Shown here: positions 1-36,713 of the stretch, in pieces
Numbering within the stretch: the stretch's first letter is position 1
How the letters are laid out: every line of letters begins with the position of its first letter
Assembly: GCA_028280845.1 (NCBI GenBank)
Contig: JANQKZ010000020.1
Span: 1-64,000 of the forward strand
Direction of reading: 5' to 3'
Length of the DNA stretch: 64,000 bases
Origin: Opitutales bacterium
GTDB taxonomy: Bacteria > Verrucomicrobiota > Verrucomicrobiia > Opitutales > JABSRG01
Made by a program: the position numbers and the translations under genes
The notes under the pieces: generated by a model
Database searches by the model: none
Told to the model about the DNA's origin: nothing
Seen by the model: only the letters and a program-made list of their open reading frames with translations

Positions 1-3000
1 TCCATTGCCGGAACTTGTGATCACATCACTCTGGGTGACATCGGTCACGGGAGAGGTGGTCGCATCGCTGCCCACACGATTGATCGTAGCCGAGGTATCG
101 TCCACCGTAAGGCCATTGGCTTCCAGGATGCTGATGCCGCCACTGGTGGCCCGGGCGCTCAGGGTATTGATACTGGTCTCGATCGGATTTACCAGGGAGC
201 CCAGCTGCCCGGCTCCGACCGCGGCGTTAATGCGGAGAGCGGTTGCATTGATGTCGAGGGCGCCGTTTGTATCTCCATCAAAAATCGTTCCGGTGTTCGT
301 CGTCAGGCTCACGGAACCGGTAGTCGTGATCGTCCCACCGAGGATGATGTTCACGTTGGCCAGCATCCGAACATCTCCCGAACCCGTGGTCTGGTCCGCA
401 TCCGTGGCCAGGGTAATGGAACCGGTGGTGGCCTGCAGGTCGATTGAACCGGTCAGGCTGGTGGTGATATCAGCTTCGGCAGTAAACTCAATAGATCCGG
501 AAGCCAAAATAGTGACGTTGCCACTACCGCTCAGCACATCGGCATTGGCAGTAATGGAACCTGCGATTGTTTCCAAGAGCACGTTTCCAGTCCCATTCGC
601 GCTGACCGTAGTATTGTCAGCTGCAGCAGTTCCGTCGTTCAGGGTCAAATCACCGGCAGTCAGGCGGATCACGATGGAGCCATTACCCGAGGCGGTCGAC
701 ACATCGCTTTGGGTGGCGTCGGTCACCGTCGATGTCGTGGCGTCGCTGGCTACGCGGTTGATAGTCGCGCTGGTATCATCCACAGTCAGACCATCCGCTT
801 CCAGGATACTGACTCCACCACTCGTAGCACGACCGCTAATGGTGTCGATATTGGTTTCGATCGGATTCACCGATCCACCAAGTTGTCCGGCTCCCACACC
901 GGCAGAGAAGCGCAGGGCAGATGCATCGATATCGAGGCCGGCATCCACATCACCATCAAGGATGGACCCCGTTCCAGCCGTTAAGCTGACGGAACCGGAG
1001 GTCGTGACTATCCCACCCAGCGTAATATCGACTCCCGCCAGCATCCGCACGTCACCACTTCCCGTGGTCTGGTCTGCATCGGTGGCGAGGGTGATGGAAC
1101 CGGCAGTTGCTTCGACATCGATCGTACCAGTCAGACTGGTGGTGATATCAGCTTCGGCGTTAAAGGTAACTGAGCCCGAAGCCAGGACAGTGATATTTCC
1201 GCTGCCACTGAGCACATCCGCGTTGGCCACGATGGAACCGGCCAGGGTATTGAGTAACAGGTTGCCTGTTCCATTTACGCTGGCAGCAATACCGTCTGCC
1301 GCAGGTCCGGCATTCAGAGTAAGGTCACCCATTTCGACCACCAGGATGGCCGTTCCATTATTGCTGGTAGTGAGATCTTCCTGATTAAAGAATGTGGTTC
1401 CAACCGGGGTAAGGCCATTCGTTCCGATCCGATTTACTTCCACGGTGGCCCCATCCACGATCAGGGCGCTTGCTTCCTCCAGATACACCCCATTGTCGGC
1501 CCCGTTGGCCGACCCGCTGGCGGCGTTGAGGGTGCCGACCTGAGTCTCGATGGGATTGGTGGCCGAGCCAACATTCGTGCCCGCATTAAGGATGAGGAGA
1601 CCGGAGATCAGGTCGTCCGCCGTATCCGCAGCAATATCATTAATGGCTCCGACATTGGCGAGCACCGCAATGACCGCGCTGTTGCTTTCTGAGCCACTGG
1701 AAATAAGTTCGATTTGGATATCCCCCGTCACCGCATTGTAGAAGACATCTCCGTCATTCGTGGTGGTTTGGGCACCCGCATTCATCGTGATGTCATCTGC
1801 AGCCAATACGTCTAACGTTTGTCCGGAAGCCTGAACCGCGATATCACCATTGGCGTTTTGGATGATGTCATCTCCGGAATGCAGACTCATATTACCGGTC
1901 GTGCTGATAACGGACGCGTTTAACGTGATATGGTCGTCGTCCAGATCTGTCGCCTCACCGGTTTCTCCACTTTGCAGGAAGACGTTGCCGACTGCAGTGA
2001 CCGCATTGGAATCCGCATCGCTTCCATCCTCGAGCGTAATCGAACCATGGATAGTGGTGACGACCAGTGCGCCATCGCTGACAAGATCACTTTGCGCGGC
2101 ATCGGTTGGCGTGGAGGCAATAGCTCCATCCGTTCCGATCCGGTTCACGGCGATACTGGAGGTTTCCGTCACCACCAGGCTGTCTGTTTCCCGCAGGAAG
2201 AGCCCAGCGGTGTCGACGTCGGCACTGACCTCAGAGACCAGAACTTCCAGGCTGTCCGCTCCCGTACCTACGCCACCGGATTGTCCTGATTCGGTAGCCA
2301 GGCGAAGTTCTTCAGCCTGCACGTCGATCACGGAATCGCCGTCAGCCGCGCTGTCGACGATTGAGCCAAACGCGTAGAGGCTGACATCGTTCGAGGCCCC
2401 GGCAAGGATTTGACCTACGGTCAAGTCACCCCCCGCAGCAAAGTAGCGGATGTTGGCCCCATTGGTCGCCGTAGAGGTCACCCCGTCTGCCATCGATATG
2501 CCAGCCGTAGCAAAGACATCAATGGTCTGAGAGGCAGTTTGCGTTTCAAGCGTTCCTCCAGCCGCCTGGACAACATCATCGGCCGATACCAGGCTGATGC
2601 TGCCGCCCACGCTGACGACCGAAGCATTAAGCGTGATGTCGTCGGAATTGTCCTCCACACCTTCTCCGATTTCGCCGGACTGTAGAAGCAGGTTACCCGA
2701 TATCGACGCACCGGTGGTGGCGGTCGCGGTGCCACCATTCACGGTAATAGAACCATCCAGGGTCTGAAGCACCAGGGCACCACCATTGGTCGTGGTGAGG
2801 TCTTCCTGGGTCGTATCCGTAGTGGAAACCGGGGTCTCTCCGCTGGCAGTCAAACGATTGATCGCAACAGTCACACTACCGGTGGCCACAGAATTGGTCT
2901 CGGTGAGGAAAGTGCCGTCGGTGCCACCCGAAGCAGTGGTCAAGGTATCCACCGTAGTCTCGAGGGCATTGCTTCCCTCACCGGCATTGAGGGCGGCGGA

Positions 3001-6000
3001 GATCAACAAGCCAGCCGCCACCACATCGACGGCATCGGAATCGGCATTGTCCAGAATGGAATTCGTATTGGAGATCAGGGCCACATTGCCAGTGGTGACA
3101 AAGCGAGCAATGATCATGGCATTTTGGGCTTCAACCCGGATATCCCCGGTGCCCGCATCGGTGACATTGTCTTCGAAGGCCGTAAAGGTGTTTCCTGCCA
3201 CGATATCTACCGTGCCAGAGGTGGTGGTGATGTCACTTTCGGTATTGGCTGCCCCACCCTGGGTAATCGCTCCACTGACCGACACGGTGATGTGGCCACT
3301 GCCTGCGTCGATAGCGCTCAGAATATTCAGATTACCTGTGGTAGAGATAAAGACATTGCCCGACCCAGCCGCACTCACCACTTGGTTATCCGTATCACCG
3401 TCATTCAGGGTCAGGGTGCCTCCGGTGGTTAAGGAAATGGTACCATTGTTGGTCGCCTCCATATCTGACTGGGAGAAGTCGGTCGTAGAAATCGGGTCGC
3501 TTCCATCATCAGCGACCTCGTTGACGCTCACGGCCACCGTTTGTACGATGAGCCCATCCAACTCAGTGATGAAGGTTCCGGCTGCGCCATCCGAAGCAGA
3601 GCTTAGGGTGGCAACTGCGGTTTCGATGGCGTTATCTGAAGCCCCGATATTGGAGCCGGCATCCAGAATGAGCCCATTGGCAAGAATATCGACTGCCGCA
3701 CTGTCGACCAAGTCCAGGATGGAAGTTCCCGCGGAAATCACCACGTCGCCCGTTCCTGTGCTCAGGAGACCCAAGGTCACGGATCCAGCCGCTGCCCGGT
3801 AACCCAGATCGCCGTTGGTCGTGGTGGCGATTGCCCCATCTGCCATGGCAATAGATCCCGCTGCCTGCACGTCGACCGTCTTGGCCGAGCCTTGTCCAAT
3901 GATATCACCATCGGCAGTTTGTGACACATCGTCAGCAGAAACAACGGTGATGTGTCCATTCGTGCTGGTAATCGCGGCTTCGATCACCACATCATCGGAG
4001 TCGTCCTCAGCCACCTCGCCGACTTCGCGAGATTTCAGTAAAATGTTGGCTCCGGCAGTCACCCCGGAGGCTCCGGATACGACGGTGATGGCCCCGTCCG
4101 TGGTGATGAGGACAACCGCAGCGCTGCCATTCAGGTCAATCACATTGATGGAATCGGACTCCGCAATCTCGATATCACCCGAGCTCGAGTTAGTCGCATC
4201 GATAGACTCGACTCGGGTCTCCAAGGCATTTCCGTTACCAATGCCGGTAAGCGCGGTAATCACCAGACGACCGGCGAGGGCATCGACATCGAGATGGGTA
4301 TCGCCCCCGTCAACCACCGCAGTATTGGTGGTCAGCGTTACCGCGGTGGCCGTATTATTGGTCGTGATCAAACCACCCAGGGTGATATCCCCTCCGTTGG
4401 CTCCGGTGCTTACCGAAATTGTCCCGCTTCCCGCATCCGCGGTGGATCCGTCAGCCATCTGAACGATCTCACCACTGTTTCCACCGGCTGCGCCGTCATG
4501 GTTGGCGGTCAGATTCACACTACCGGTCCCGGTTCCCGTGATAGATCCGGCGGCGGTAAAAATGATAGAGTCATCCGCATTCAGGCTGACCTGGGCCGTC
4601 CCCGATGTCGTGATGGCCTGATTGACCAGAATGTCTGCATTGGCCGTCTGAGCGGTGAGGACAATATTTCCGTCGATGGAGCTCACTCCAGTGCCGGCAG
4701 ACTCGACGGTGATGGTTCCTGCCGTCGTGGTCACGGACACTCGACCGGTCAGGCTATTGCTATCATCCGCGACCTGGTTGGAGACGTGAATGATGCTCAA
4801 GTCATTGCTTTCCAGGATTTCAATGTTTCCAGCAGCCGCGTCGTCTGAAGGGGTTCCGGCTGCATTATCTGCATCGATCGAGGCGACTTCTATCTCAAGC
4901 GCATTTCCGTTACCAATACCCGTGACCGCGTCAATGACCAGGCGACCGGAGGCTGCATCGACCTCCAGGGTGGCATCTCCCCCATCAATCACAGCCTGAT
5001 CGGTGGTAATCGTGACCGCCGTATCCGATGTGCTCATGGTGACGAGACCGCCCAAGGTGATATCCCCACCCTGACCATTGGTGGCGCCAGTGGTAGAGAG
5101 CGAAATTGTTCCCGTATCGGCATCAATCAAGGTGGCGTCATTCATCGTAATTCCGTTTCCGGAATTGCCGGCCGCGTCATCGTGGTTGGCCGTGATGGAA
5201 ATGTTGCCCGTTCCCATGGCAGTGATGTCGCCATTCGCATCAAAGGTAATGCTGTCATCCGCCTCCAGGGTCACCGAACCGTTATTCGTGTTAACGGAAT
5301 CATTAAAGGTCATGTCAGCGTCCGTATTGTTCGCGCTGATGAAAACTTGCCCGTTGAGGAGATCCACGCCACCACTACCCGCTTCGATGGTCAGGCTGCC
5401 GAAGTTGACCAGGTTCAGATTACCGGCGTTCGTGATCTGGATGCCATTGAGATCCTTGTTGGCCCCGGCATTAAAGATATTTGAATCAATTGCCGTCAGG
5501 TCAGTCCGGGCGGTAATCGTCCGGGTCACGATGTTGGAAACCGTGGTGCGCAGGGCTACCCCGTCAGCTGCTTCGATAGCGAGGTCATTTGCCGTCAACA
5601 TGCTCGGATTAGTCTGTCCCTCAATCGCTCCTGCGGGGCTGTAAAGCAGGATGCCTCCGTCTGCGCCAGCTGCAGACACCGTTGTCGTCGTAAACGTGAT
5701 GTTCCCGCTACTGGAGCCGGACACCATTTCCACCAGGCCATTTACTGATCCATCCGTAGCGGCAACGGAACCCGTATTTAAACCGCTTCCATCGACCACG
5801 ATGCTACCATTGCCGTCTGGGGAAAGCGCATCGACATCGAATCCAGCAGCCAGGGATACCCGCTCGAGGGCCTCGACAGGAGCGTTGATAGTGATGTCGG
5901 CCTGCGACTCCATCCGAATCCACGCATTCCGACGCCCCGTGGTGTCACCGATGGGAGCGTTCACCGTGATACCGGCTCCGCTCACTTCATTAGCCTTAAA

Positions 6001-8200
6001 GAGGACGTAGTCCACACCCGTGCCGGACAACTCAATTTCGCCGTCCACGACAATGCTTCCCCCATGGATTTCCATGACATTGATGATCCGGGTGGTCTGG
6101 GTAACAAGCAGGTCGCCAATCGTAATCAGCCCCAATCCGGTATTCAGGTGGCCGATGATCACCTGATCCCAGTTGCTGGAGATGGCCTGGATGTCCTGGT
6201 CGGAAATGTCGAGGGTGCCGGCACCGGAATTTGGCGAGCCAATGTCAATGCTGGTGGCAGCCGTCGTGCTGAATGGTGCAATGGTCAGAACCGAACCGGT
6301 CGACCCATTAATCGTGCCCGTTCCAAAGCTGAAGTCAGCCTCGTCAGAGAAGAGCGTGACATCACCGGTCGCATTCAGGAGGTTGGCGAAGATCACTCGG
6401 GTCTGGGTCGTGATCTCGATGTTGCGGGCCGTGACTTGCTGGGAGAAGCGAGTCGTTCCTGTTCCTGTGGTCTGGAAGATATCACGGGCGTTGATGTCTC
6501 CACTGACCGTTACATTCCGGGCTTGTGAGATGGTGAAATCGGAGTTGCCGCTATTCACTGCAACCGAACCGGAGAGGGTGATGTCGCGATTCGCACTGGG
6601 AACATTCAGAATGATATCGCCGCCGGAAACAACGTCGCCGTCTACGGTGATGTTTCCATCTGCCGTGGTAATCGTGATCGTTCCGGCCACCTCAAGGCGT
6701 CCGTTGAAGTCGACCGAATTGACCCCCGAAATAGTGAGGTTTCCTTCGATATCCACATTACCATCGAAGGTGACGGCATCCGCAGACGTGATCGTGAGGT
6801 CGCCATCGAGGGTGACGTCCCCCTGCAGGGTGATGTTGTTGCCCGCGCTCATCGTCAGATTCCGCAGCGGGTCAGATCCGCCAAAGGGCAGATTGGAAAC
6901 AATGCTGTTACCTGCAGTCAGGGTCAGATCATCTGGATTAGCATCTCCATCGCCAGAGATGGCGATACCAGGAATGGTGAACGAAATATTCTGATCAGAT
7001 TGGATGGACCGGTCTCCCGTCACTTCCACGGAATCACTAAAGGTAACACTCATGACATCCATGATGTCGGCCATGAGCTGCACCGTGCTGCCATCTCCAA
7101 AGAAGACGAGAACGTTACCCGTAATATCACTGGTCACCTCGATGAGATCACCCCGAATAATGGTAATGGGGCCGGTGAAATCAACCGGGTTGGACGAACC
7201 ATCTCCGATGGTGATCCGGTTCCGGAGGGTCTCCGAGCCGATAATGACCGAGCCCCCGGCCTGTAAGTTATTGATCTCATCCTGGGTGAGAATCATCCCC
7301 GTAATGGCATTGGGCACATTACCCAGGAAGTTGGTATTGGATACCAGAACGATCGGGATATTTACACTCGCCGTGGAAACAAGGATGTTATTGTCCGTCG
7401 TAACGGGTTCATCCACCGCCAGCTGGTTGCTGATCAGGGCAATGGACTGATCCTGCCCATCAATGGTGGTTTCGGCTTCCTGGGTACCCAGTAGACTGTA
7501 GAGCGTAATTTGACCGGATGAGGAAGGGCTGAAGGTCTGCACATCATCTACCTCAATGACATAGGTTTCGGAGAAATCTTCACTCCTGAACGTGATGTCA
7601 TTAACCCGGGTCATGATCGATTTCGGGCTGGCAAAGAAACCGTCCAGTTCTTCTCCGATCCGGTTGGCAGCCGTCATCGTCAGGCTACCCCCCGCGGAAG
7701 AAATGAAAGCGCCCCGATCTGTCCGGATGGTGGTGCCATTTGGCAAGAAGGTGATGGTTTCAAAGGTCTGGGCATCGGCGGTATTGATGCGCGCGGTGTC
7801 CTTGTTGATCGAGGACTCATTAAAGCGTCCAAACTTCATCGCCCAGTCCAGATCCGGCTCAAAGGCCCCGGTGTCAAAACTGCCATCTGCGCGGAGCCAG
7901 CCGTTACCATCCGTCAGGATCGACCCGCCACGGGCAAGCAGGGTGATATCTCCGGAGCCGTCACCGATGGCCGAGTTCACATCCGCGCTGCTGTAGATGC
8001 CGTCGTGCAGGGTGATATCTCCCGTCAAGGCATCCAGGGTGACGTTACCATTCGAACGAGCCCGCAGATCGTAATTCACGGCCAGTCCAGTATCGCTGTC
8101 AAAGTAGACATCCCCGGCATGGACGACTCCATCCCAGGCAATGGAAGTGGCGGTTACATCAAAGGTTTCCTTCAGATCGATTTTCTTGGTGCCCGCCGCA
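1..8200 (-). repeat. Filamentous-haemagglutinin-like repeats of the giant protein
   Basis: This part is built from short strands such as GSITLATDAD, GNVLLETIAG and SGSGNVTILASG, as in beta-helical FHA-type adhesins. A longer unit of about 675-680 bases is visible in the leftmost part. The same segment, ending in TQSDVxTxSGNG, lies at plus-strand positions 2 and 680, with weaker copies near 1355, 2060, 2780 and 3440. The two leftmost units are very similar at DNA level. The array continues beyond base 1. Confidence 0.8.
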
Positions 8201-26745: not shown

Positions 26746-27396
26746 TAGCGAGTGAGTTTATTGGGGTATACGCCCCAGAGAGACCCCAATAACAAGTCAC
26801 AGGACTCCCCCGAAATCAACACTTATTTTATAAGAATTTATAAAAGCTTAAGATCAGGAGCATGATAAGGCTATTTCAATACTATTTCATGAGAGATCCT
26901 CCATCATCGGAGATTAGAAATGATATTTGTAATCGCCTCTCAAAGAAGACAATTTAATCCCTTCAAAGGGGATTATATCGAATTTAGTTTTCTCAATTTT
27001 ACTCTCTTTTTAATGCGACAAAAATAAACTTATTCAAAAATTAAATGAGTTTAAATGAATAATTTTTAAAGTACTTTTATCTGACATATAATTTTCGTAT
27101 TTATAAAAGTTTTAGATCGCATAAATTAAATCAACTATCGATAGATATATAAAATTTTATTAGTCTCATCAATAAAAAATAGAGTCATTTTTTTATATTA
27201 ATAATACTTTCATATAAAATCTCATATTAATGGGTAATTTTGTCTCAGTCCGAAAAATATATAAAATAGATTTAATTTATTAAATCATCTAAACATCGAA
27301 AAGTTAATAGGGATGCAAAAAAGGACCTTATCGATTAGGGTTGCATTGTCTGCGTGGAAGGCCAATTAAGACCGGTTTTCCGCATCTTAACATTTC
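26746..27396. promoter_or_regulatory. AT-rich divergent control region
   Basis: This 651-base gap separates the giant adhesin gene from the divergent exporter operon. I counted 43 G+C in 240 bases at 27001-27240, about 18%, against well above 50% in the flanking genes. No convincing ORF is present. It must hold both divergent promoters, but many AT hexamers occur and I cannot choose a -10/-35 pair. A weak hairpin (AATCCC/GGGATT, near 26955-26975) is also present. Such AT islands are typical targets of nucleoid-associated silencing proteins. Confidence 0.7.
26758..26792. promoter_or_regulatory. Inverted repeat just upstream of the giant gene
   Basis: The arms TTATTGGGG (26758-26766) and CCCCAATAA (26784-26792) are perfect 9-bp complements separated by 17 bases. 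The proximal arm lies 12 bases from the start codon of the giant gene. It could be an operator or an mRNA hairpin over the ribosome entry region. No T-run follows on the minus strand, so it is not an intrinsic terminator. Confidence 0.55.
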
Positions 27397-28947
27397 ATGC
27401 AACGAACAATATCCATCATTCTATTCCTATCGCTAAATGCCGCGATACTCTTAACACTCGCAGCACATGCTCGTGCGCAAAGCACACCCCCGGAGCCCCT
27501 TGAGTATACCATTTACGAATTTGCTCTGATGGCTCTGCAAAACAACCAGGAACTGGAGGTTGAACGGCTTGGGCCACAGATTCAGGAGGAGGCCATCAAC
27601 GAGGCACGGGGTGCATTCAATCCTGCCCTGAAGGTATCCGTAAACCACGAAGACCGGGAACGCAATTTGGATCAACGCGCCTTCAACGGAGTCTCCAGTA
27701 TTCTATTTGGGGGCGGTGGTGGAGACTCAACCGTCTTCGCCGAAGTCAACTCCGGGGTAGAAACCGGAATTGAAGGGCGAACCCCCTTGGGCACCCAATA
27801 TAATTTGTCCATGTTCAACCGGATCACGGAAAACGATGCCAATGAGTTCCTGGCAGAATACACCTCGGAACTCAACCTGACCGTGAAACAGCCGATTCTC
27901 CGTGGTTTTGGGAGAGACTACAATACGGCAGTCATCCGCCTGGCGGAGAATCGGTATGAGCAACAGGAATTCCGCCTGCGCAGCATCGTGCTCTCTGTGC
28001 TGCAGGAGACGATCAATGCCTGTGTGGAGCTTAAATTTGCTCAAGAAAACATGCGGGTAAAGCGGGAATCCATTGAACTGGCGGAACAGTTCGTTAGGGA
28101 AAACAAACGGAGGGTTGAAGAGGGCCGTATGAGTGAAATCGAAGTCGTTCAGGCGGAGACCCGACTTTCAGAAGCCAAAGAGGAAGCCTTACAGGCAAAA
28201 GGATTCTACATCCAACGGCTCAACCGCCTGCGGGCCCTGATCTATGCCGATGCCAATGAATATCACGATCAACCGCTACGCATTGATTACGAATTTGACG
28301 GAGACCGTAATTTACCGGGCCGAGATGATTTGCTCTGGTCCGCCAAGAACCGCAATCCGAACTACCTGCTTGCCAAGAAGCAAATCGAGGAACGATCCAT
28401 TTCACTCGACCGGGCAGAACAGGATATTTTACCCGAGTTAAACCTGGTCGCAGGCGTAGGCTACCAGGGCCTTGGATTCGACAATATCCACTCCGCCATC
28501 GACGACTACGCCAACCGGGATGGCCCCAACTGGTTAGTAGGGGTCGAGTTCGTATATCCACTTGGAAACGACACTGCCCTCTCCCGACGGAGAGCCGCCC
28601 TTCTCGGCAAGCGGCAGGCCGAGTACAACTTGGCCCAGATCGAGAACCGCCTCGTAACCACCTTGGACCAGGCGATCGGAAATGTCGAAGTCACCCTCGA
28701 GATCATCGACACAGCCGCCGACTCCGTCCGACTGGCCACGGAATCTCTTGAGGCGGAACAGACTCGCCTGGTGAACGGACGGACCACGAGTTTCAATGTC
28801 GCCCAACTCCAAAGGAATCTTTCGGTTGCCCGCACCCGTGAGCTGGCAGCCTATGTTGAATACGAAAAGGCGCGGTCCACCCTTTGGACCCTGGTGGGTA
28901 TCCTCGACCAGCGCATGAATCTTCAATCTGAAACCCTGGCGAACTGA
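27397..28947 (+). CDS. TolC-family outer-membrane channel
   Basis: The 516-residue product has a Sec signal peptide (residues 1 to about 27, ending AHARAQ). It then has the two-fold TolC architecture: long amphipathic helices around residues 180-290 and 400-510, each flanked by beta-strand segments. The sequence RVEEGRMSEIEVVQAETRLS is a typical helix-turn of the OEP fold. TolC proteins trimerise into a periplasm-spanning duct used by type I exporters and efflux pumps. It is first in a five-gene operon, and its TGA overlaps the ATG of the adaptor gene by one base. The ATG has no Shine-Dalgarno sequence. The expected substrate is the divergently encoded giant protein (inference from context). 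Confidence 0.9.
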   Translation: MQRTISIILFLSLNAAILLTLAAHARAQSTPPEPLEYTIYEFALMALQNNQELEVERLGPQIQEEAINEARGAFNPALKVSVNHEDRERNLDQRAFNGVSSILFGGGGGDSTVFAEVNSGVETGIEGRTPLGTQYNLSMFNRITENDANEFLAEYTSELNLTVKQPILRGFGRDYNTAVIRLAENRYEQQEFRLRSIVLSVLQETINACVELKFAQENMRVKRESIELAEQFVRENKRRVEEGRMSEIEVVQAETRLSEAKEEALQAKGFYIQRLNRLRALIYADANEYHDQPLRIDYEFDGDRNLPGRDDLLWSAKNRNPNYLLAKKQIEERSISLDRAEQDILPELNLVAGVGYQGLGFDNIHSAIDDYANRDGPNWLVGVEFVYPLGNDTALSRRRAALLGKRQAEYNLAQIENRLVTTLDQAIGNVEVTLEIIDTAADSVRLATESLEAEQTRLVNGRTTSFNVAQLQRNLSVARTRELAAYVEYEKARSTLWTLVGILDQRMNLQSETLAN

Positions 28948-29675
28948 TGCGTTTCCTCCTACCCTTGATATCTATCGCTCTCGCGGTTTCCGTTAGCTTA
29001 CCAGTCACTTCGCCCGCGCGGGAGGTCGAGGGCATTGTTCAGGCAGATAAAGACATCACGATCAGCGCCAGGACGGAAAACGTCATCGTATCTATGGAGG
29101 TTGAAGAAGGCGACCTCGTGGAAGCTGATCAACTATTGGCCCGCCTCGACAGCCGCACCCAGAAGCTACAGGTCGCCCTGTGGGAAAAACGACTCGAATT
29201 GCTCCAGGTCGCCTACGAGAGCTCTCTCAATCTGAGCCGGGATAATATTGTGAGCCGCGAAGAATTGCTCACCGCCGAAATTGAACGCGACCTCGCTCAG
29301 ATCCAACTGGAAGCTGCCATGGTCGATCTCGCCGATACTGAGCTGCGATCAGCCATTAACGGAGTGATTGTAGAAATAACGAAAGAACCCGGTGAACAGA
29401 CCCAACTGGGAGAGGAGCTTTTCCGCATCGTCAATACGGAGATCGTCTTCATACAGCTCTACCTTCCAGCCGAGGAAGCCGCCACCCTGTCGCTGGGCCA
29501 GGAATTTGTGGTTAAGTTTCCCCAACTGAAGAATCTGGAGACCACCGACGCCACCATCTCCTTTATTGATCCGGCCGTTGACCCCAATAGCGGGTTTCAA
29601 CGCATCCGTTTGCTCCTCCCCAATCCCGACAATAATATCCGGACCGGCCAGCGATGCCGGGTCGTCTTTCCCTGA
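28947..29675 (+). CDS. Short periplasmic adaptor (HlyD/RND MFP type)
   Basis: The 242-residue product has a signal peptide (residues 1 to about 24). A biotinyl-lipoyl half-motif follows (VSMEVEEGDLVEADQLLARL, residues about 49-68), then a short helical hairpin with an 'SREELLTAEIERDLAQIQLE' type sequence, the second lipoyl half (INGVIVEITKEPGEQTQLGE) and a beta-barrel to the C-terminus. This is a compact membrane-fusion protein that would couple an inner-membrane unit to TolC. It lacks the N-terminal membrane helix of HlyD and overlaps the preceding gene by one base. Six bases separate it from the next gene. It is the smallest of three proteins in the operon with lipoyl/HlyD-like parts. Confidence 0.85.
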   Translation: MRFLLPLISIALAVSVSLPVTSPAREVEGIVQADKDITISARTENVIVSMEVEEGDLVEADQLLARLDSRTQKLQVALWEKRLELLQVAYESSLNLSRDNIVSREELLTAEIERDLAQIQLEAAMVDLADTELRSAINGVIVEITKEPGEQTQLGEELFRIVNTEIVFIQLYLPAEEAATLSLGQEFVVKFPQLKNLETTDATISFIDPAVDPNSGFQRIRLLLPNPDNNIRTGQRCRVVFP

Positions 29676-29681
29676 TTTTAA

Positions 29682-31511
29682 ATGAACCTAGAATCAAAAT
29701 TTAGGGAGCAGCTTAAGGTCTGCCGCAATTTCGCCGGCTCCGCAGGTGAGTTCTGGACCCAGTATAGTTCCCTCCTCGGACAACTCGGCGTCGCCGAAAA
29801 ACTTTGCATATTGATCCTGAACCCGGAGGGAAAATGGCAAGCGCTCGCCTCCTACCCGTTGGCTGCCGAACGCTTCTCCATGCCCATCGCCCTCGGCGAT
29901 GCGGATTTCCAATCCTGGGTCGACGAATCCCTTGAACACGGATTTGCCACCCGCGACGGTGAACCCGTACGGCAGGGCAGTGCGCTTCTCATCGCCCTGG
30001 AAACGGGCTCCAATCAATCGGTCCTGGCGCTTTTTCATGATCCTCTGAAATCCATGGACACCCTGGCTCAACAGGGGCCCGTCCTACAAACCGTCGCCGA
30101 TGTCCCCGCCTCCTATTTGCGGGGCCGGCAGCTGCATCAAGCCCTGGAGGATGTTCGACATTGTATCCAAACTCTGGATACTCTTAATATCATCAACAGC
30201 CAGACACGGTTCTATGCCATGGCCATGGCCCTCTGCAACGAGGTCAAAGATCGCTTTGGTTGTTCCCGGGTCAGTCTGGGCTACTTTAAGGAGCCCTACA
30301 TCCGGGCTCAGGCCATCAGCAACATGGACCGGTTTGAACCCAAGATGGAGATCGTTCAGCAGCTGGAGGCCACCATGGAAGAGGCGGTCGATCAGGATGA
30401 GGACATTCTCTATCCGGCCCCCGATAACCAGGGCGGGGCCATCACACGCGAACACCGGCAATACGCGGAGGCCGAAGGATCCGGATTTTTGCTGACCATG
30501 CCCCTCCGCCTTGGAGAGCAGGCTGTCGGCGCCATTTGCTTTGAGCGTCAGGATCGGACCTTTTCAGAGCACGACATCCGGGCCTTACGGGTCCTCTGTG
30601 ACCAGGTGGCCCGGCGGGTTCACGACTTGAGAGAATCAGATCGATGGATCGGCGCCCGGATGGCTGCAGGCCTGCGCCAGTTTTTTGGCGGTTACCTGGG
30701 ATATACACATACCTGGCGCAAGGTGTTTGCCATCCTTGGAACCGCGGTCTTCCTGGCCCTGATATTTATCCGGGTCGAATATCGGGTCGAGGCCCCCTGC
30801 ATCCTGCGCAGCTCGCAACTACTCCACCTCCCCTCGCCCTATCAGGGATTTATAGAGGAGGTGAATGTCAAGGTAGGTGACTTTGTTCCCGCACAACAGG
30901 TATTACTCGCCCTGGATACCAGTGAACTCCTGGTCGAACGGGCCAACCGACTGGCGGAAATCCAGGCGTATTCCAGCGAGGCCGAAAATGCTGAGGCGGA
31001 ACGACGCTTGGCCGATTTACGAATCGCCAATGCTCAGAGAAAACAAAGTGAGGCCGCCCTGGAACTCATCGAGTTTCAACTGGCCCGCGCCGATCTTCGG
31101 GCTCCCTTTGCCGGCGTTATTGTGGAAGGGGATCTGACCGAACGCGTGGGGGCTCCCGTCGAAAAAGGAGAAACCCTCATGCGCTTATCCCGCCTTGAGG
31201 ATCTCTACGTCGAGATGAAAGTAAACGAACGGGACATCCCCCATATCCAGGATAGCATCGGGGGCGAGTTTGCCCTGGCCAGTAAGCCGGATGAACGATT
31301 TCCCTTCACCATCGAACGCATCGAGCCGGTTGCCCTGGCCGAACCCAACGGCAGCGTCTTTCACGTTCGCGGAGTTATAGACGATACAGCAAATGACTGG
31401 TGGCGGCCTGGCATGAGCGGGGTGGCCAAAATCAATACGGAAAAACGATCCCTCCTCTGGATCTTCACCCACCGCCTGGTCGACTTTCTCCGACTCCAAC
31501 TCTGGTGGTAA
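29682..31511 (+). CDS. GAF-domain/HlyD fusion membrane protein
   Basis: The product has 609 residues. Residues about 1-330 are cytoplasmic and include a GAF-like fold (about 160-330, ending ERQDRTFSEHDIRALRVLCD). A single membrane helix follows (about 346-364, FAILGTAVFLALIFI). The C-terminal half is a periplasmic HlyD-type adaptor, with lipoyl halves near PYQGFIEEVNVKVGDFVPAQ and LRAPFAGVIVEGDLTERVG around an alpha-hairpin. GAF domains bind small molecules or act in signalling, so this adaptor could sense a cytoplasmic ligand and gate export. The gene starts six bases after the previous stop and lies 15 bases before the next gene. The ligand is unknown. Confidence 0.85.
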   Translation: MNLESKFREQLKVCRNFAGSAGEFWTQYSSLLGQLGVAEKLCILILNPEGKWQALASYPLAAERFSMPIALGDADFQSWVDESLEHGFATRDGEPVRQGSALLIALETGSNQSVLALFHDPLKSMDTLAQQGPVLQTVADVPASYLRGRQLHQALEDVRHCIQTLDTLNIINSQTRFYAMAMALCNEVKDRFGCSRVSLGYFKEPYIRAQAISNMDRFEPKMEIVQQLEATMEEAVDQDEDILYPAPDNQGGAITREHRQYAEAEGSGFLLTMPLRLGEQAVGAICFERQDRTFSEHDIRALRVLCDQVARRVHDLRESDRWIGARMAAGLRQFFGGYLGYTHTWRKVFAILGTAVFLALIFIRVEYRVEAPCILRSSQLLHLPSPYQGFIEEVNVKVGDFVPAQQVLLALDTSELLVERANRLAEIQAYSSEAENAEAERRLADLRIANAQRKQSEAALELIEFQLARADLRAPFAGVIVEGDLTERVGAPVEKGETLMRLSRLEDLYVEMKVNERDIPHIQDSIGGEFALASKPDERFPFTIERIEPVALAEPNGSVFHVRGVIDDTANDWWRPGMSGVAKINTEKRSLLWIFTHRLVDFLRLQLWW

Positions 31512-31526
31512 GCCCCTTGAGAAGCA

Positions 31527-33686
31527 ATGAGTGATAATCCCTCATTTTACAGCGAGTCCTGGTATCGTGTCCGCAGCCAGCATGTTTCGCTGCGACCCAA
31601 TGTGGTTATCCACAAACAATCCTTCCGCGGCAGGATCTGGTATGTGGTGGAAGACCCATTCAATAACCGGTTTTACCGGTTTCGCCCTCAGGCTTACTCC
31701 TTCATTGCCAGGCTTTCCGAACATAAGACCGTCGAAGAAGTCTGGCAGCAGTGCCTTGATGATGATCCGGAAAATGCGCCTGGCCAGCCCGAGGTAATCC
31801 GCATGCTGGCCCAACTCTACCAGGCCAGCCTGTTGCAATCTGACCTCTCCCCTGATGCTGCCCGCCTCTTTGAACGGCACCGTCGCCAGAAGCAACGGGA
31901 ACTCAAAGCCAAGTTACTCAGCATTCTCTTTATCCGGATTCCGCTCTTCGACCCCAATAGATTACTCGACCGCCTGATGCCGGTCGTGGGGCCGTTGATG
32001 GGTCGGGGTGGCCTCGCCATCTGGCTCCTTGTTGTGCTCCTTGGAGGAAAAACGGTGATCGATAATTTCGCTGCGCTCCGCGATCAAACCGAAGGTATCC
32101 TGGCTCCTGATCGCCTGATTTTTCTCTACCTGAGTTTCATCCTGGTCAAAATTCTACACGAATTCGGGCATGCCTTTCTCACCAAAAAATGGGGAGGAGA
32201 GGTTCACACCGCCGGTATTATGCTCATGGTGTTCAACCCCATCCCCTATGTGGATGCCACGGCCGCATGGGCCTTCCGGGAACGGTGGAAACGGGTCCTC
32301 GTCGGATCCGGAGGCATGCTGGTCGAGCTCTTTCTCGCTGCTATTGCCGCCTTTGTCTGGGCCGCCACGGACGAAGGATTTTGGAACGGGCTCGCCTACA
32401 ACGTGATGTTTGTCGCCTCCGTATCCACCTTGCTCCTGAACATTAATCCGCTGATGCGGTTCGATGGGTATTACATCCTTTCGGACCTCACCGATACCCC
32501 CAACTTAAACCAGCGGTCGAATCGACACGCACTCTACCTCGCGGAGCGCTATATCCTCGGCAGTAAATTGGCCCGGACTCCCGCGGAGTCGAAAAATGAA
32601 GGGGTCTGGTTGGCCGTATTTGCCATTGCCGGCTGGTTCTATCGCCTTTTCATCTTCGCGGTCATTCTCTGGTTTGTGGCTGACCGATTTTTCGGGTTGG
32701 GGTTCCTCGCCGCCATGGTGGGGATTGTCACCTTCTTCATTGTCCCCCTGGTGCGCCTCGTGAATTTCCTCCTCAACGAACCCCGGATTGAATCCATCCG
32801 CCTGCGCGCCCAGCTGATTACCGCATCCATTGCCACCGGCCTGGTCCTGTTCTTCGGTTTCGTCCCTATGCCGGCGGCCTTTCGTGCTCAGGGGATCATC
32901 CACGCCCTGCCACACCGGGAAGTCTACGCCGGGTCACCTGGATACATGAATGCAATCACCCGGAGTTCCCTGACCTGGGTTCAACCGGGAGACCAGCTGT
33001 TCCAGATGCAGAATGACGAGCTGGGAATCCTTCACCGGGCAGTCCGGGCGGAACAGGAAGAAATCGAGGCCCTGCTTCAGGTTGCCGTCAACGACCCCAC
33101 CCTGCAACGCCCAGCCAATCGGCAATTGGACGCCGTTGACGAAAAGATCCAACGCCTCGAAACACAAATGGCGGAACTGGATTATGCCGCGCCATTGGAG
33201 GGGCTTTGGGTGATTCCCCGCCAGGAGAACATCATGGGAGCCTACGCTGAACGCGGCACCCCAATTGGACTGATTTTAAATCCGGACCGGTTTGAATTTG
33301 TCGCCGTGGTGCGGCAACGCCACGCCATGCATCTGTTTAATGAAGAAGTGAGCCGGGTTGTCCTGCGTATTCCCGGGCAGTCGGGAGATGCTATACCCTT
33401 GAGCCGACTTCGATTCATCCCGGCTGAGCAGAGCATCCTCCCCCACCCCTCGTTGGGTTGGGCGGGTGGCGGCCCCATCGAAGTTTCCGCGGACGATCCG
33501 AATGGCATACGAGCCATAGAGCCCTTTTTCCTCGTCTATGGTGAAATTCCTGCGTCGGCTGCCGAGTCGGTCACCATGGCCCATAACCTGGGAGGAGTGA
33601 TCCGTTGCCAGCTCCCCCCAAGTCCCTATTTTGTCCAGGGGTATCGGCTTCTCCGCCGCATGCTCCAGGATCGCTTCGAGATTTAG
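31527..33686 (+). CDS. M50 metalloprotease-HlyD fusion with PqqD-like N-terminus
   Basis: The product has 719 residues. Residues about 20-105 resemble the PqqD/RiPP-recognition winged helix (LRPNVVIHKQSFRGRIWYVV, then an acidic helix pair). A polytopic membrane section follows with the M50 zinc motif HEFGH at 211-215, the partner motif NPIPYVD at 237-243, and NPLMRFDGYY at 307-316. Residues about 450-700 form a HlyD-like lipoyl/barrel section (EVYAGSPGYM and later parts). Relatives are annotated as YydH-type 'putative peptide zinc metalloprotease' proteins and usually sit beside HlyD adaptors. It could bind the leader of the giant protein, cleave it, or serve as the inner-membrane channel. 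All zinc-binding residues are intact, so proteolysis is plausible. Confidence 0.85.
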   Translation: MSDNPSFYSESWYRVRSQHVSLRPNVVIHKQSFRGRIWYVVEDPFNNRFYRFRPQAYSFIARLSEHKTVEEVWQQCLDDDPENAPGQPEVIRMLAQLYQASLLQSDLSPDAARLFERHRRQKQRELKAKLLSILFIRIPLFDPNRLLDRLMPVVGPLMGRGGLAIWLLVVLLGGKTVIDNFAALRDQTEGILAPDRLIFLYLSFILVKILHEFGHAFLTKKWGGEVHTAGIMLMVFNPIPYVDATAAWAFRERWKRVLVGSGGMLVELFLAAIAAFVWAATDEGFWNGLAYNVMFVASVSTLLLNINPLMRFDGYYILSDLTDTPNLNQRSNRHALYLAERYILGSKLARTPAESKNEGVWLAVFAIAGWFYRLFIFAVILWFVADRFFGLGFLAAMVGIVTFFIVPLVRLVNFLLNEPRIESIRLRAQLITASIATGLVLFFGFVPMPAAFRAQGIIHALPHREVYAGSPGYMNAITRSSLTWVQPGDQLFQMQNDELGILHRAVRAEQEEIEALLQVAVNDPTLQRPANRQLDAVDEKIQRLETQMAELDYAAPLEGLWVIPRQENIMGAYAERGTPIGLILNPDRFEFVAVVRQRHAMHLFNEEVSRVVLRIPGQSGDAIPLSRLRFIPAEQSILPHPSLGWAGGGPIEVSADDPNGIRAIEPFFLVYGEIPASAAESVTMAHNLGGVIRCQLPPSPYFVQGYRLLRRMLQDRFEI

Positions 33687-35682
33687 TTCCTTGCTATCTA
33701 CCACCGCAGAATACCAGGCCACGGATTTGGTCCGCAACGCCCCCCTGCCCCAGGGACTGGATCGGCTCGTCTATTCCTCGGCGGGTCTCTTCAAGCGGTT
33801 GAGCGATTCCTCCAAAGCATTCGGTCTCCGGGCAGACGATATCCTGCAGCAGCGGGAGGAGTTCAAAACCTGGAAATCGGGGCGTCTGAAACAGGAAATC
33901 CGATCGCTCCGGGAGGCGGTTCGCCGGGAACGCCATGATCCGACCGAAGCGGCCATCGCCGCCCTCCCCGCTCTGGTTGAAGCCTCCTCCCGGGTCTTAC
34001 GCCTCACCCCTTACCGGGAACAGATCATGGGGGTGCTCGCGCTGCAGGGAAACCATATTACTGAAATGGCTACCGGCGAGGGGAAGACCCTCACTATCGC
34101 CTTGGCAGGGATAACGGCTGGTTGGACCGGGTTCCCCTGCCACATCATTACCGCCAATGATTATTTGGCCGAACGGGATGCCACCAACATGCGCCTGCTC
34201 TACACCTTTTGTGGATTAACCGTAGAATCTGTGCTGCGCAACATGGATCCACCGGCCCGCCAAAAGGCCTACCGTGCCGATGTGGTTTACACGACCAGCA
34301 AAGAGGTGGTAGCCGATTTCCTCCGTGACCGCTTACGCCTCCGCCGGCTACACCCCTCTGCCTTTCGCTCCAACCGGAAGCTGGTCGACCATCGCATGAA
34401 TACTCTCGAGCTGCTCGTCCAACGCGGGATGCACACCGCGATCGTGGACGAGGCCGACAATCTGTTAATCGATGAAGCCGTCACCCCATTAATTATCAGC
34501 CGCCCCCAGGAGAACCAATCGTTAGCCAAAGCCATACGAGTGGCGGACGAAGTAGCCCGCGAACTGGTAGAAGGCCAGGACTTTGTCCGGGATGACCAAC
34601 TGCGGACCGTGGAGTTGTACGCGTCCGCCAAAGAGCGCATGCATCAACACAAGGATCGCCTCGGCAGGTTTTATCGCGAATCCACCTGGCTCGAGGAATT
34701 ACTCCAGAAAGCCCTCATTGCGCGCTGTTACTTTGAACGGGATCGACAGTATGTCGTGCAGGACAAAGAAATCATCATTGTCGATGACTTCACGGGGCGC
34801 CTCATGCAGGGTCGCTCCTGGAAGCAGGGCCTCCAGCAAGCCATTGAAGCCAAGGAAGACCTGCCCATCACCGATCCGAGCGAATCGGTTACCTCGTTGA
34901 GCTTTCAACGCTTTTTCCGATTCTACCGGCGTCTCTCGGGAATAACCGGAACGGCCAGGGAATCCGCCCATGAGTTCTGGGAGGTGTATAACCTGTCCTT
35001 TATCCGCATTCCCCGCCACAGGCCCCTCCAACGCGTAGACAATCCTTCACGGGTCTATCCCGATACTGGGTCCAAATGGGAAGCCCTGCTCGATGAGATT
35101 GAAAGCGTGCACGAAACCGGACGCCCTATCCTGGTAGGAACCCGCAGTATCCACGATTCGGAGCGCATCTCTGAGCAACTTTCTCATCGAGGAGTGGCCC
35201 ACCGGCTCTTAAACGCCTCCAGGGAACGGGAAGAAGCCCAGATCATTGCCCTGGCCGGGCACCGCGACGGAGTCACCATCGCAACCAATATGGCGGGCCG
35301 TGGAACCGATATTAAACTCCACGACGACGTGATTAAACTCGGTGGCCTTCATGTCATCGCCACCGAACTGAATGAGTCCCTCCGCATCGACCGCCAGCTT
35401 TACGGCCGGGCCGGGCGTCAGGGGGATCCCGGGACCTCCTCCACTCTGGTCTCCCTCGAAGATGGTGTCCTCATTCAACACGGCAAATTCATCAAACAAA
35501 TCATGGACGCCCTGTTTCGCCTGCCTCCCTTTCCCGCGCGCGACCGCCTGGCGCGGCTCGCCCTCCGCCTGGCTCAAAGGAAGGCGGAACGCACGGCCAG
35601 GACGCAACGCGGCGGCGTAACCCGGCGCGACTCCTGGATTGAAGAGGTCTTTGCCATGAGTGGGATGGAACTGGGAAGTTGA
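33631..35682 (+). CDS. Shortened SecA-like translocase ATPase
   Basis: The product has up to 683 residues. SecA motor motifs are clear: YREQ Q-motif region (about 128-131), Walker A MATGEGKT (146-153), DEAD box VDEADNLLIDEA (about 272-283), TNMAGRGTDI (about 552-561) and the arginine-finger segment QLYGRAGRQGDPG (about 588-600). Canonical SecA has 800-900 residues; this protein ends about 70 residues after the last motor motif, so it lacks most of the helical wing and scaffold and the C-terminal zinc tail. No ATG precedes the motor. TTG at 33631 overlaps the M50 gene by 56 bases, and TTG at 33691, four bases after its stop, is an equally good start. It probably energises export of the giant protein. 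It is a paralogue, not the housekeeping SecA. Confidence 0.85.
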   Translation: MSRGIGFSAACSRIASRFSSLLSTTAEYQATDLVRNAPLPQGLDRLVYSSAGLFKRLSDSSKAFGLRADDILQQREEFKTWKSGRLKQEIRSLREAVRRERHDPTEAAIAALPALVEASSRVLRLTPYREQIMGVLALQGNHITEMATGEGKTLTIALAGITAGWTGFPCHIITANDYLAERDATNMRLLYTFCGLTVESVLRNMDPPARQKAYRADVVYTTSKEVVADFLRDRLRLRRLHPSAFRSNRKLVDHRMNTLELLVQRGMHTAIVDEADNLLIDEAVTPLIISRPQENQSLAKAIRVADEVARELVEGQDFVRDDQLRTVELYASAKERMHQHKDRLGRFYRESTWLEELLQKALIARCYFERDRQYVVQDKEIIIVDDFTGRLMQGRSWKQGLQQAIEAKEDLPITDPSESVTSLSFQRFFRFYRRLSGITGTARESAHEFWEVYNLSFIRIPRHRPLQRVDNPSRVYPDTGSKWEALLDEIESVHETGRPILVGTRSIHDSERISEQLSHRGVAHRLLNASREREEAQIIALAGHRDGVTIATNMAGRGTDIKLHDDVIKLGGLHVIATELNESLRIDRQLYGRAGRQGDPGTSSTLVSLEDGVLIQHGKFIKQIMDALFRLPPFPARDRLARLALRLAQRKAERTARTQRGGVTRRDSWIEEVFAMSGMELGS

Positions 35683-35724
35683 ATTTACACTTCACTTTCC
35701 CCTCCCTTTCACTTTCACTCTTGA

Positions 35725-36171
35725 ATGCAACTATCCCCACGACCGACTGAAAAAGCTGAACTCGAGGAAGGCGCATTATTTCAGCCCAAGTTTGACGGCG
35801 ACGGCTTGATCCCCTGCATCTGCCAGGATGCTGATTCCGGGATGATCCTCATGTTTGCTTTCATGAACGAGGAGTCCCTCAAGGAGTCGATTCGGACAAA
35901 GACCGCTGTCTATTTCTCCCGCTCCCGCCAGAAATTATGGAAAAAGGGGGAGTCTTCCGGCAATGTGCAACACATCGTAGATATCCGAACCGACTGCGAC
36001 CAGGACGTGGTCCTGATTCGCGTTAGAGCGGACGGGGCAGCCTGCCACATGGGTTATCCGTCCTGTTTCTATCGCGAAGTCAGTTTACCTGCCGTGGAAG
36101 ACGCTCCCGTGGCTTTGCGTGCGGTCGGCCTTGAAAAGGAATTTGACCCGAAAGAGGTCTACAAGTCCTAG
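35725..36171 (+). CDS. hisI: Phosphoribosyl-AMP cyclohydrolase
   Basis: The 148-residue product carries the HisI signature: FDGDGLIPCICQDADSG, FAFMNEESLKESI, YFSRSRQKLWKKGESSG, TDCDQDVVLIRV and ACHMGYPSCFY. The cysteines of DCD, ACH and SCFY are the zinc ligands of this enzyme, which opens the pyrimidine ring of PR-AMP in histidine biosynthesis. Its length matches the single-domain enzyme with no HisE fusion. It follows the SecA-like gene by 42 bases of pyrimidine-rich sequence with no Shine-Dalgarno, and mogA begins five bases after its stop. No other his gene lies in the window. Confidence 0.95.
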   Translation: MQLSPRPTEKAELEEGALFQPKFDGDGLIPCICQDADSGMILMFAFMNEESLKESIRTKTAVYFSRSRQKLWKKGESSGNVQHIVDIRTDCDQDVVLIRVRADGAACHMGYPSCFYREVSLPAVEDAPVALRAVGLEKEFDPKEVYKS

Positions 36172-36176
36172 CCTCG

Positions 36177-36713
36177 ATGCCCGAACAGATCAAAATTGGT
36201 ATTATCAATGTATCGGACCGGGCCAGTGCCGGTGTATATGAAGATATTCCAGGCCAATCCGCCAAAGAAATTCTCAGCGATTACCTGCTGAATCCTGTAG
36301 CATTTGAGTATGCCGTCATTCCGGACGAACAGGCCCGGATCGAAGCGCAGTTGAAACAGATGGCGGACGATGACGGTTGTTGTCTGGTCATCACCACGGG
36401 GGGAACCGGACCGGCCTTGCGGGACGTCACCCCGGAAGCCACGGAAGCGGTTTCAGAAAAATTGATGCCCGGCTTCGGAGAGCTCATGCGCGCGACTTCC
36501 CTCCAATATGTCCCTACGGCCATCCTCAGTCGGCAAACTGCCGGAATACGGGGATCCTGCCTCATCGTGAACCTTCCCGGCAAACCGAAGGCCATCCGGG
36601 AGTGCCTCGAGGCCGTGTTTCCCGCCGTCCCATATTGCATTGATCTTATTGGGGGACCCTATCTAGAATCTAATACTCAACATATTGTATGTTTTCGACC
36701 AAAATCAAAATAG
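36177..36713 (+). CDS. mogA: Molybdopterin adenylyltransferase
   Basis: The 178-residue protein matches MogA along its length. It has IGIINVSDRASAGVYED at the N-terminus, the MPT-binding TTGGTGPALRDVTPEAT loop (about residues 73-89), the MPGFGELMR helix, TAILSRQTAGIRG and the LIVNLPGKPKAIRECLEAVF segment. MogA adenylylates molybdopterin before molybdate insertion in molybdenum cofactor synthesis. The gene sits five bases after hisI and nine bases before the response-regulator gene, so the three are probably co-transcribed, though their pathways are unrelated. Confidence 0.95.
   Translation: MPEQIKIGIINVSDRASAGVYEDIPGQSAKEILSDYLLNPVAFEYAVIPDEQARIEAQLKQMADDDGCCLVITTGGTGPALRDVTPEATEAVSEKLMPGFGELMRATSLQYVPTAILSRQTAGIRGSCLIVNLPGKPKAIRECLEAVFPAVPYCIDLIGGPYLESNTQHIVCFRPKSK

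Follow-up and report, generated by a model that had tools for sequence, protein, structure and literature searches.

How does a bacterium export a protein of at least 8,915 residues when the operon facing its gene encodes HlyD-type adaptors and a TolC-type channel, and a SecA-like protein occupies the functional slot of an ATP-binding cassette (ABC) ATPase? The question is raised by the start of a contig from an Opitutales bacterium (JANQKZ010000020.1, here C1, of a 4.79 Mb assembly), of which bases 1–64000, the window, were analysed. On balance we favour reading this operon as a dedicated export apparatus for proteins with a short N-terminal LExR tag, here the divergent giant; a short SecA would power export, and a protein that fuses a site-2 protease (M50) to an HlyD adaptor would bind the tag and cut it. 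The arrangement of genes is real and conserved across many phyla, and the locus itself is already known.

Kamneva, Poudel and Ward (2015; PMC4452313) described, from several phyla, secondary SecA_DEAD proteins in which the wing-scaffold domain is partly or wholly missing, encoded beside genes with M50, GAF and HlyD domains and sometimes an outer membrane channel (OEP) gene, with no ABC homologue found there. One locus that they name is META1p2402-2399 of Methylobacterium extorquens AM1. They proposed SecA as the ATPase and the M50 protein as a possible pore, and left the role of the locus unknown, with no substrate; in a term search of the main text, the words giant, RTX, adhesin and LEPR are absent. 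The locus in the window agrees with theirs in its short SecA without most of the scaffold/wing domain, in its M50, GAF-HlyD, HlyD and OEP neighbours, and in having no ABC exporter. To their description the present analysis adds the tag on the cargo, the RRE domain, a branch without short SecA and an operon linked to an ABC exporter, all described below. An earlier interpretation made from the DNA alone (the sequence-only reading) had held that no characterised system has this composition. The system is indeed uncharacterised, but since the locus and the idea of SecA in place of an ABC ATPase were published in 2015 (PMC4452313), priority lies there. A search of open-licence papers found nothing joining LEPR giants to this locus; the curated LEPR-XLL model (NF012209) names the motif only, and papers that print LEPR-XLL assign no machinery to it in the passages concerned. 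As far as can be told from the open-licence literature, the assignment of tag to cargo, the reading of the M50-HlyD protein as an RRE-protease, and the two branches with different motors are new.

The giant gene, its tag and the facing operon

Coordinates and domain matches confirm the proposed layout, a giant open reading frame (ORF) divergent from five operon genes:

1–26745, minus strand: candidate cargo gene for a giant protein of 8915 aa or more, truncated by the contig start
8761–9006, minus strand: RTX stretch, short and internal, giant residues ~5914–5995
26680–26706, minus strand: LEPR tag LEPRIMLSA, residues 14–22 of the giant, D next (NF012209, tag profile)
26746–27396, no strand: divergent intergenic gap, A+T-rich, with promoter-like sites on both strands (consensus only)
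27397–28947, plus strand: TolC-type outer membrane channel (OEP; PF02321, 7.2e-46)
28947–29675, plus strand: small HlyD adaptor with a hydrophobic, signal-peptide-like N-terminus (PF16576, 1.6e-19; hydrophobicity)
29682–31511, plus strand: GAF-HlyD protein, GAF at residues 183–312, HlyD from ~378 (domain matches)
31527–33686, plus strand: RRE/PqqD – site-2 protease (M50) – HlyD protein, proposed to act as receptor and peptidase for the tag
31554–31841, plus strand: RRE-like domain of the M50-HlyD protein, residues 10–105 (fold; Pfam PqqD in relatives)
32100–32681, plus strand: site-2 protease core of the M50-HlyD protein, residues 192–385, with HExxH (211–215) and D313 intact
32862–33650, plus strand: HlyD/MacA-like periplasmic adaptor part of the M50-HlyD protein, residues 446–708 (structure match)
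33691–35682, plus strand: short SecA ATPase (ORF listed from 33631; probable start 33691)

The giant frame runs from 26745 down to base 1 without a stop (at least 8915 codons) and is open-ended; window base 1 is also contig base 1, so the gene has been cut by the assembly. The visible frame is acidic, with 1129 D+E against 270 K+R. Its LEPR motif, noted in the sequence-only reading, is borne out by NF012209 at 26.2 bits against a cut-off of 17 (residues 11–26; C1:26668-26715). The gap between giant and operon is 651 bases long and A+T-rich relative to its surroundings; consensus matching found 13 promoter-like sites in 26700–36200, where 5.3 were expected, and six of the 13 lie inside the gap. 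On the operon side, the listed TTG start of the SecA gene at 33631 falls inside the M50 gene. An in-frame TTG at 33691 is favoured by the relatives and is probably the true start, giving a protein of 663 aa directly 3' of the M50 stop. A Pfam scan of the window found no exporter-type ABC protein; the sole ABC ATPase match (41696–42817) is to a MalK-type importer ATPase.

A second complete set lies on contig C32 of the same genome, where an LEPR giant of ~3489 codons (with its stop) is divergent from OEP, HlyD, GAF-HlyD, M50-HlyD and SecA genes in the same order as on C1. The two giants carry the only LEPR matches in this genome. Against the window's short SecA (P0005), the one on C32 (G000:C32:20522-22483, L070) has one in-alignment stop near the end, which is either its natural end or a small truncation. 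No RTX match was found in the second giant.

RTX repeats together with TolC and HlyD parts had been taken to point to type I-like export. The HlyD and TolC parts are there, and HlyD adaptors, a TolC-type channel and a large acidic cargo are common to this system and type I secretion (HlyB-HlyD-TolC, or LapBCE for giant adhesins). RTX does not hold up as the shared feature, because the stretch in the first giant is short and internal and the second giant has none; as a common export signal it was rejected, and the N-terminal tag is the common denominator. The system also has extra M50, GAF and SecA parts, and no HlyB/LapB/PrtD-type ABC protein in the window. As to the C-terminal signal and RTX repeats of type I substrates, the giant is cut at the contig end, its RTX stretch is internal, and the second giant has no RTX hit.

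The AlphaFold2 model of the window's M50-HlyD protein (P0004) has a mean pLDDT of 88.6. In this predicted model residues 449–698 resemble MacA (Z 15.5) and residues 192–385 resemble the site-2 protease RseP (7w6x; Z 10.1 over 160 residues, 4.1 Å). The Pfam M50 score of 20.6 is under the cut-off of 27.2; the HExxH and NxxPxxxxD motifs and the site-2 protease fold that define M50 members are all present. H211, E212, H215, N305, P308 and D313 are invariant in all 46 aligned M50-HlyD proteins, and HExxH occurs in 112 of 112 sequences on the SecA side and 24 of 24 on the SecA-less side described below; when the second motif was searched with a looser pattern, 13 of the 112 and one of the 24 were missed, probably as an artefact of the pattern. 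A catalytically dead M50 serving as a pore alone was considered as well and is not supported, HExxH and the wider motif being intact.

Adaptor folds filled the results of a structure search with the whole model, and the N-terminal domain was therefore folded alone (pLDDT 86.1). By VIA-align the isolated domain resembles leader-bound lasso-peptide B1 proteins, including TbiB1 (Z 9.3 and 9.2), and PqqD (8.1), and also GdmN (Z 10.1), NO66 and other winged-helix domains; Foldseek on the isolated domain returned nothing below E 0.001. The three-stranded sheet and three helices of the RRE/PqqD fold are present, with similarity to PqqD. The PqqD domain named in the sequence-only reading falls below the Pfam reporting limit in the window's member; it is found at E≤0.01 in 20 of 46 relatives, and the fold agrees. 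From Pfam in the relatives and VIA-align on the model, the domain is predicted to be RRE-like (PqqD). The best curated relative of the protein is the daptide HExxH protease NF041824 (residues 21–411; 162.7 bits, below the cut-off of 300). A recognition domain with a site-2 protease is common to this protein, the daptide protease and the YydH/LiaK peptide-maturation proteases, but the window's protein carries an HlyD adaptor in the same chain, and its partners are very large proteins rather than short peptides.

The short SecA has no SecA_SW match and keeps the preprotein cross-linking domain. Its profile aligns to about residues 10–612 of solved SecA chains of some 780–840 residues; judged by this alignment and by the domain limits of SecA, the wing domain and the two-helix finger appear to be absent. 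The core ATPase residues G149, G151, K152, D273 and E274 are invariant in 29 of 29 short SecA proteins. Like SecA2 and the accessory Sec systems, this would be a second, shortened SecA for special cargo, but its scores against the NCBIfam SecA2 models are far under the cut-offs (486/1085, 460/930, 409/725 and 371/1100 bits, score/cut-off). Its neighbours are HlyD and TolC proteins; in accessory Sec they are SecY2 and Asp proteins.

Co-occurrence of the tag, the M50-HlyD protein and the short SecA

An even sample of 240 Verrucomicrobiota genomes was searched, with a limit of E≤0.01 for LEPR. LEPR was found in 20 genomes and M50-HlyD in 52, which were split after the scores had been seen into 16 strong (best E <1e-90) and 36 weaker (the rest at 1e-10). 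Short SecA (P0005, E≤1e-130) was found in 16 genomes, identical to the 16 strong ones. LEPR occurs in 15 of these 16 and in 5 of the 224 others (Fisher 1e-18), or in 14 of 15 strong genomes without the window's own (Fisher 1e-17); the Fisher tests, here and below, ignore the kinship of the genomes. Presence and absence go together within genera: G039 of genus g5 has both LEPR and M50-HlyD, while G048 and G108 have neither; G140 of g10 has both and G085 neither; and G093 and G186 of g54 have both, with G023 in neither match list. The two are also physically linked. A LEPR-tagged gene lies within 15 kb of 11 of 18 SecA-type M50 loci, in agreement with the neighbourhood expected from the window.

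A second sample comprised 185 genomes of Gammaproteobacteria, the class of Seongchinamella unica (G296), with an M50-HlyD limit of 1e-130 set after the scores had been seen. LEPR was found in 16, M50-HlyD in 15 (26 at 1e-20) and both in 13; LEPR thus occurs in 13 of 15 genomes with M50-HlyD and in 3 of the 170 others (Fisher 2e-15; 2e-14 without the centre genome).

Five Verrucomicrobiota genomes have LEPR without strong M50-HlyD. One of them, G217, encodes a divergent short SecA directly beside a 7111-codon LEPR gene, and its M50-HlyD, like those of G190 and G437, is distant. LEPR hits without M50-HlyD were found in G119, G059 and G025 (Verrucomicrobiota) and in G394 and G438 (the other sample); three of these five genomes have HlyD-only pieces. 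The tag hits of G119, G059, G025 and G438 are weak (E 9.6e-4 to 9e-3, in frames of 99–636 aa), and G394 (tag E 1.4e-5) is a real exception. The co-occurrence counts include all these exceptions; the linkage count omits the weak hits of G119, G190, G059 and G025.

A scan of named genomes with alignment A1 gave at least 555 confirmed relatives. The best 80 loci, from 79 distinct genomes (two of which, G243 and G253, resemble G126 and G140 from the sample of Verrucomicrobiota), span Verrucomicrobiota, Planctomycetes, Lentisphaerae, Nitrospirota, Desulfobacterota, Spirochaetes, Elusimicrobia, Fibrobacter, Chlorobi, Omnitrophota, and alpha-, beta- and gammaproteobacteria. LEPR hits were found in 66 of the 79 genomes (43/50 + 24/30, one shared). 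Among these best 80 loci SecA was seen in 68 and GAF-HlyD in 73, both beside M50-HlyD in 62. Five SecA-type genomes without SecA beside M50 were tested, and four have SecA elsewhere.

Relatives of P0004 were also seen in 75 plasmid records, in 21 of them with a coverage of 80% or more. The 15 plasmids listed are mostly alphaproteobacterial; Escherichia and Citrobacter plasmids were also counted.

The tag itself was described from 99 LExR stretches gathered at NF012209 match sites, in which L, E and R are fixed by selection. P occupies position 3 in 73 stretches; position 6 is L or M in 97, position 8 is S in 88, position 9 is A or G in 93, and position 10 is D in 58. Two residues ahead of the motif, E is found in 85. 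Six of the 99 are off the wider pattern, some plainly chance matches in other frames. In the SecA subtype the tag is typically LEPRxLLS-A/G-D. Its E eight residues ahead of a small-small pair is reminiscent of double-glycine leaders, a possible parallel. One of the 99 tags, and none of 21 tags of the variant described below, has a 12-residue core that scores over 2.5 (Kyte-Doolittle); by this crude test 98 of the 99 stretches have no signal-peptide-like core. The N-terminal cores of the operon's TolC and HlyD proteins reach 2.57 and 2.70.

The cargo need not be giant. Five planctomycetes have one or two full-length M50-HlyD proteins and 9–22 LEPR hits, in frames of very different length: 1/22 in G305 (locus L157), 1/13 in G282 (L133), 1/13 in G289 (L140), 1/9 in G284 (L135) and 2/11 in G264 (L115), M50-HlyD/LEPR. 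Because so many hits accompany so few M50-HlyD proteins, the tag seems to address a range of cargos and not to be a mark of giants as such.

A sister branch without short SecA

Twenty loci were fetched around the weaker M50-HlyD genes of Verrucomicrobiota. Several have OEP and HlyD genes plus large proteins starting like MYQLE[DE]RILFDGAAA; in the five scanned, the second HlyD protein has no GAF hit. The tag variant of this branch reads LEDRILFDGAA, and 21 examples are mostly LE[D/E]R[V/I]LF[D/E][A/G]. A profile of six such N-termini found the variant in 23 of the 240 genomes: 21 among the 36 weak-M50 genomes, one strong and one with neither (G064, which has the variant without M50; Fisher 2e-18). 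Without the six seed genomes, 15 of 17 hits fall in the weak-M50 group (Fisher 1e-13); 15 of the 36 weak-M50 genomes have no variant hit. Of 42 weak M50 genes, 20 (one of which belongs to a strong genome) have a tagged gene no more than 15 kb away, and G006 and G009 have three M50 genes and three tagged genes, each less than 11 kb from one M50. Upstream of two SecA-less M50 clusters are short proteins with the tag-like LESRELFAAVA (L174:2353-2760 and L177:2436-2933; open frames of 136 and 166 codons), which may be small cargos with a tag or the precursors of peptides.

A profile of 29 short SecA proteins found only canonical-size SecA, in frames of 913–1048 aa, in 13 of 13 Verrucomicrobiota (all with the variant tag) and 3 of 3 gammaproteobacteria of this branch. 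In a FastTree phylogeny of 137 M50 proteins (SecA adjacent in 96, not adjacent in 25, undetermined in 15), adjacency changes 6 times, against 23 in shuffles; with the root placed at the midpoint, two SecA-bearing rows, L172 and L189, come out on the SecA-less side. SecA is largely confined to one M50-HlyD branch, and the tag follows M50-HlyD in both. The pairing of tag and SecA drawn from the window therefore holds for one branch and not in general: because the SecA-less branch has its own tag variant, the tag follows M50-HlyD and not SecA. SecA as the general tag reader was rejected, this branch carrying the variant with only canonical-size SecA.

In one genus of the branch an ABC exporter is present. 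An LssB search of the 240 genomes, in which four candidates per genome were scored against a 450-bit limit, found exporters at or above the limit in 57 genomes, including 14 of 21 tag-positive SecA-less ones and many in which tag and M50 are both missing. None of the 16 SecA-type genomes has a HlyB/LssB-like match at or above 450 bits among its four scored candidates (the best match of the window's genome, 1.7e-95, is under the cut-off), which agrees with the earlier statement that no exporter ABC is linked to the SecA-type operon. In G200, G058, G097 and G153, all of that one genus, an ABC protein of 860–876 aa with ABC_membrane, ABC_tran and C39-like domains is encoded in a tight operon with an adaptor-size gene, an OEP, a tagged protein (973–1511 codons), two more HlyD proteins and M50-HlyD. 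The adaptor-size gene is an HlyD in both cases scanned, above the type I HlyD cut-off in L347, and the two ABC proteins scanned of the four match the NCBIfam HlyB model best, at 598 and 612 bits against a cut-off of 725. These operons may represent a single event.

A broader hypothesis, which we regard as possible and hold only tentatively, is that these loci form a widespread class of tag-reading exporters in which the RRE/site-2-protease/HlyD protein would read and remove the LExR tag by a mechanism like that of RiPP leaders, with interchangeable motors, either truncated SecA or a HlyB-type ABC protein.

Proposed mechanism and its rivals

For the SecA-type operon we infer a one-step route, inner-membrane path included. 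The RRE-like N-terminal domain of the PqqD-M50-HlyD protein would bind the tag at the inner membrane. The short SecA, with its ATPase core and preprotein-binding domain kept, would replace the HlyB-type ABC protein and feed the chain by ATP hydrolysis. The M50 active site would cleave the chain at the tag or beyond it, three HlyD-containing proteins together with TolC would take the chain to the surface, and the GAF domain may gate the process. The co-occurrence and linkage above, and the lack of an exporter-type ABC protein in the window, support the earlier proposal that LEPR giants have a system of their own in which SecA fills the functional slot of the ABC protein.

Several observations weigh against this apparatus. 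G086, one of the 16 strong genomes, has the main operon genes and no LEPR hit, and LEPR hits are also missing from two of the 15 Gammaproteobacteria with M50-HlyD (G326 and G412) and from 13 of the 79 named genomes. The identity of the two sets of 16 hinges on the score limit: G189 and G217 have diverged short SecA proteins that the 1e-130 limit missed, and G189 has no LEPR hit. A fitting tag was found in the 10-kb flanks of 12 of the best 80 loci, although many contigs are short and giant starts may lie further away. G316 (Marinobacter sp. F4216, L168) is the exception among the five genomes without SecA beside M50: it has a tag, LEPRMLFSAD, intermediate between the two tag types, and M50-HlyD, and only canonical SecA was found. 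Seven of the 21 tag-positive SecA-less genomes (G043, G049, G147, G150, G197, G229 and G238, four of which are not in the finer SecA profile test) have neither short SecA nor a HlyB/LssB-like exporter of at least 450 bits, and a simple swap of motors does not account for these. The shared cargo signal is N-terminal, whereas that of type I substrates is C-terminal. The two-helix finger, apparently lost here, is used with SecY. Finally, the system includes no recognised protein channel, and site-2 proteases are not known to conduct chains.

The strongest rival, though an unlikely one in our view, is retention and release: the cargo would be exported by some other route, the RRE domain would hold the tag at the inner membrane, leaving the giant suspended on the surface through TolC, and the protease would cut it free in response to a signal detected by the GAF protein. 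The logic is comparable to what is reported for the Lap adhesin system. An N-terminal tag would exit last in C-terminus-first export; the GAF sensor is fused to an adaptor, the protease is intact, and in one genus the M50 module stands beside a HlyB-type ABC protein, an HlyD adaptor and an OEP. The 16 SecA-type genomes, however, have no HlyB/LssB-like exporter at or above 450 bits among their scored candidates, so that a different kind of exporter would be needed for the other route, and SecA tracks the module genome for genome.

Second comes passage through SecYEG, to which we give a low probability. Here short SecA and SecYEG would push tagged proteins into the periplasm, and M50-HlyD and TolC would process them and pass them on. 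This supplies a known inner-membrane channel and accords with the SecA homology, including the preprotein cross-linking domain; SecA2 proteins elsewhere act with the canonical translocase (PMC4452313). It fits poorly with a short SecA that appears to have no wing domain or two-helix finger, with the 98 of 99 tags that have no signal-peptide-like core, and with a sister branch that manages without short SecA. That large-genome, surface-living bacteria keep giants and operon for unrelated reasons is very improbable: the samples are not phylogenetically independent and some genomes hold one without the other, but against this stand the physical linkage at 11 of 18 and 20 of 42 loci, the two operons of the window's genome that each face a tagged giant, the same-genus contrasts, and the match of tag subtype to M50 subtype.

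Giant-protein export is largely open for phyla rich in giants. If the dedicated apparatus is as proposed, a short tag would mark the proteins that use the route and M50-HlyD the genomes that have it, and a locus without a substrate since 2015 would gain a use. SecA as the motor of a TolC-type exporter would break the rule of ABC, RND or MFS pumps, and leader recognition and removal, known from small peptide products, would extend to proteins of thousands of residues. If the broader class of tag-reading exporters holds, the route would export some of the largest bacterial proteins.

Elsewhere in the window, an Rfam scan found nothing but one tRNA. Five GFO/IDH/MocA oxidoreductase genes are among the ten proteins scanned between 40297 and 60732, together with the MalK-type ABC ATPase and a nucleoside hydrolase. 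A family B DNA polymerase gene lies on the minus strand at 46904–49129 of this bacterial chromosome contig.

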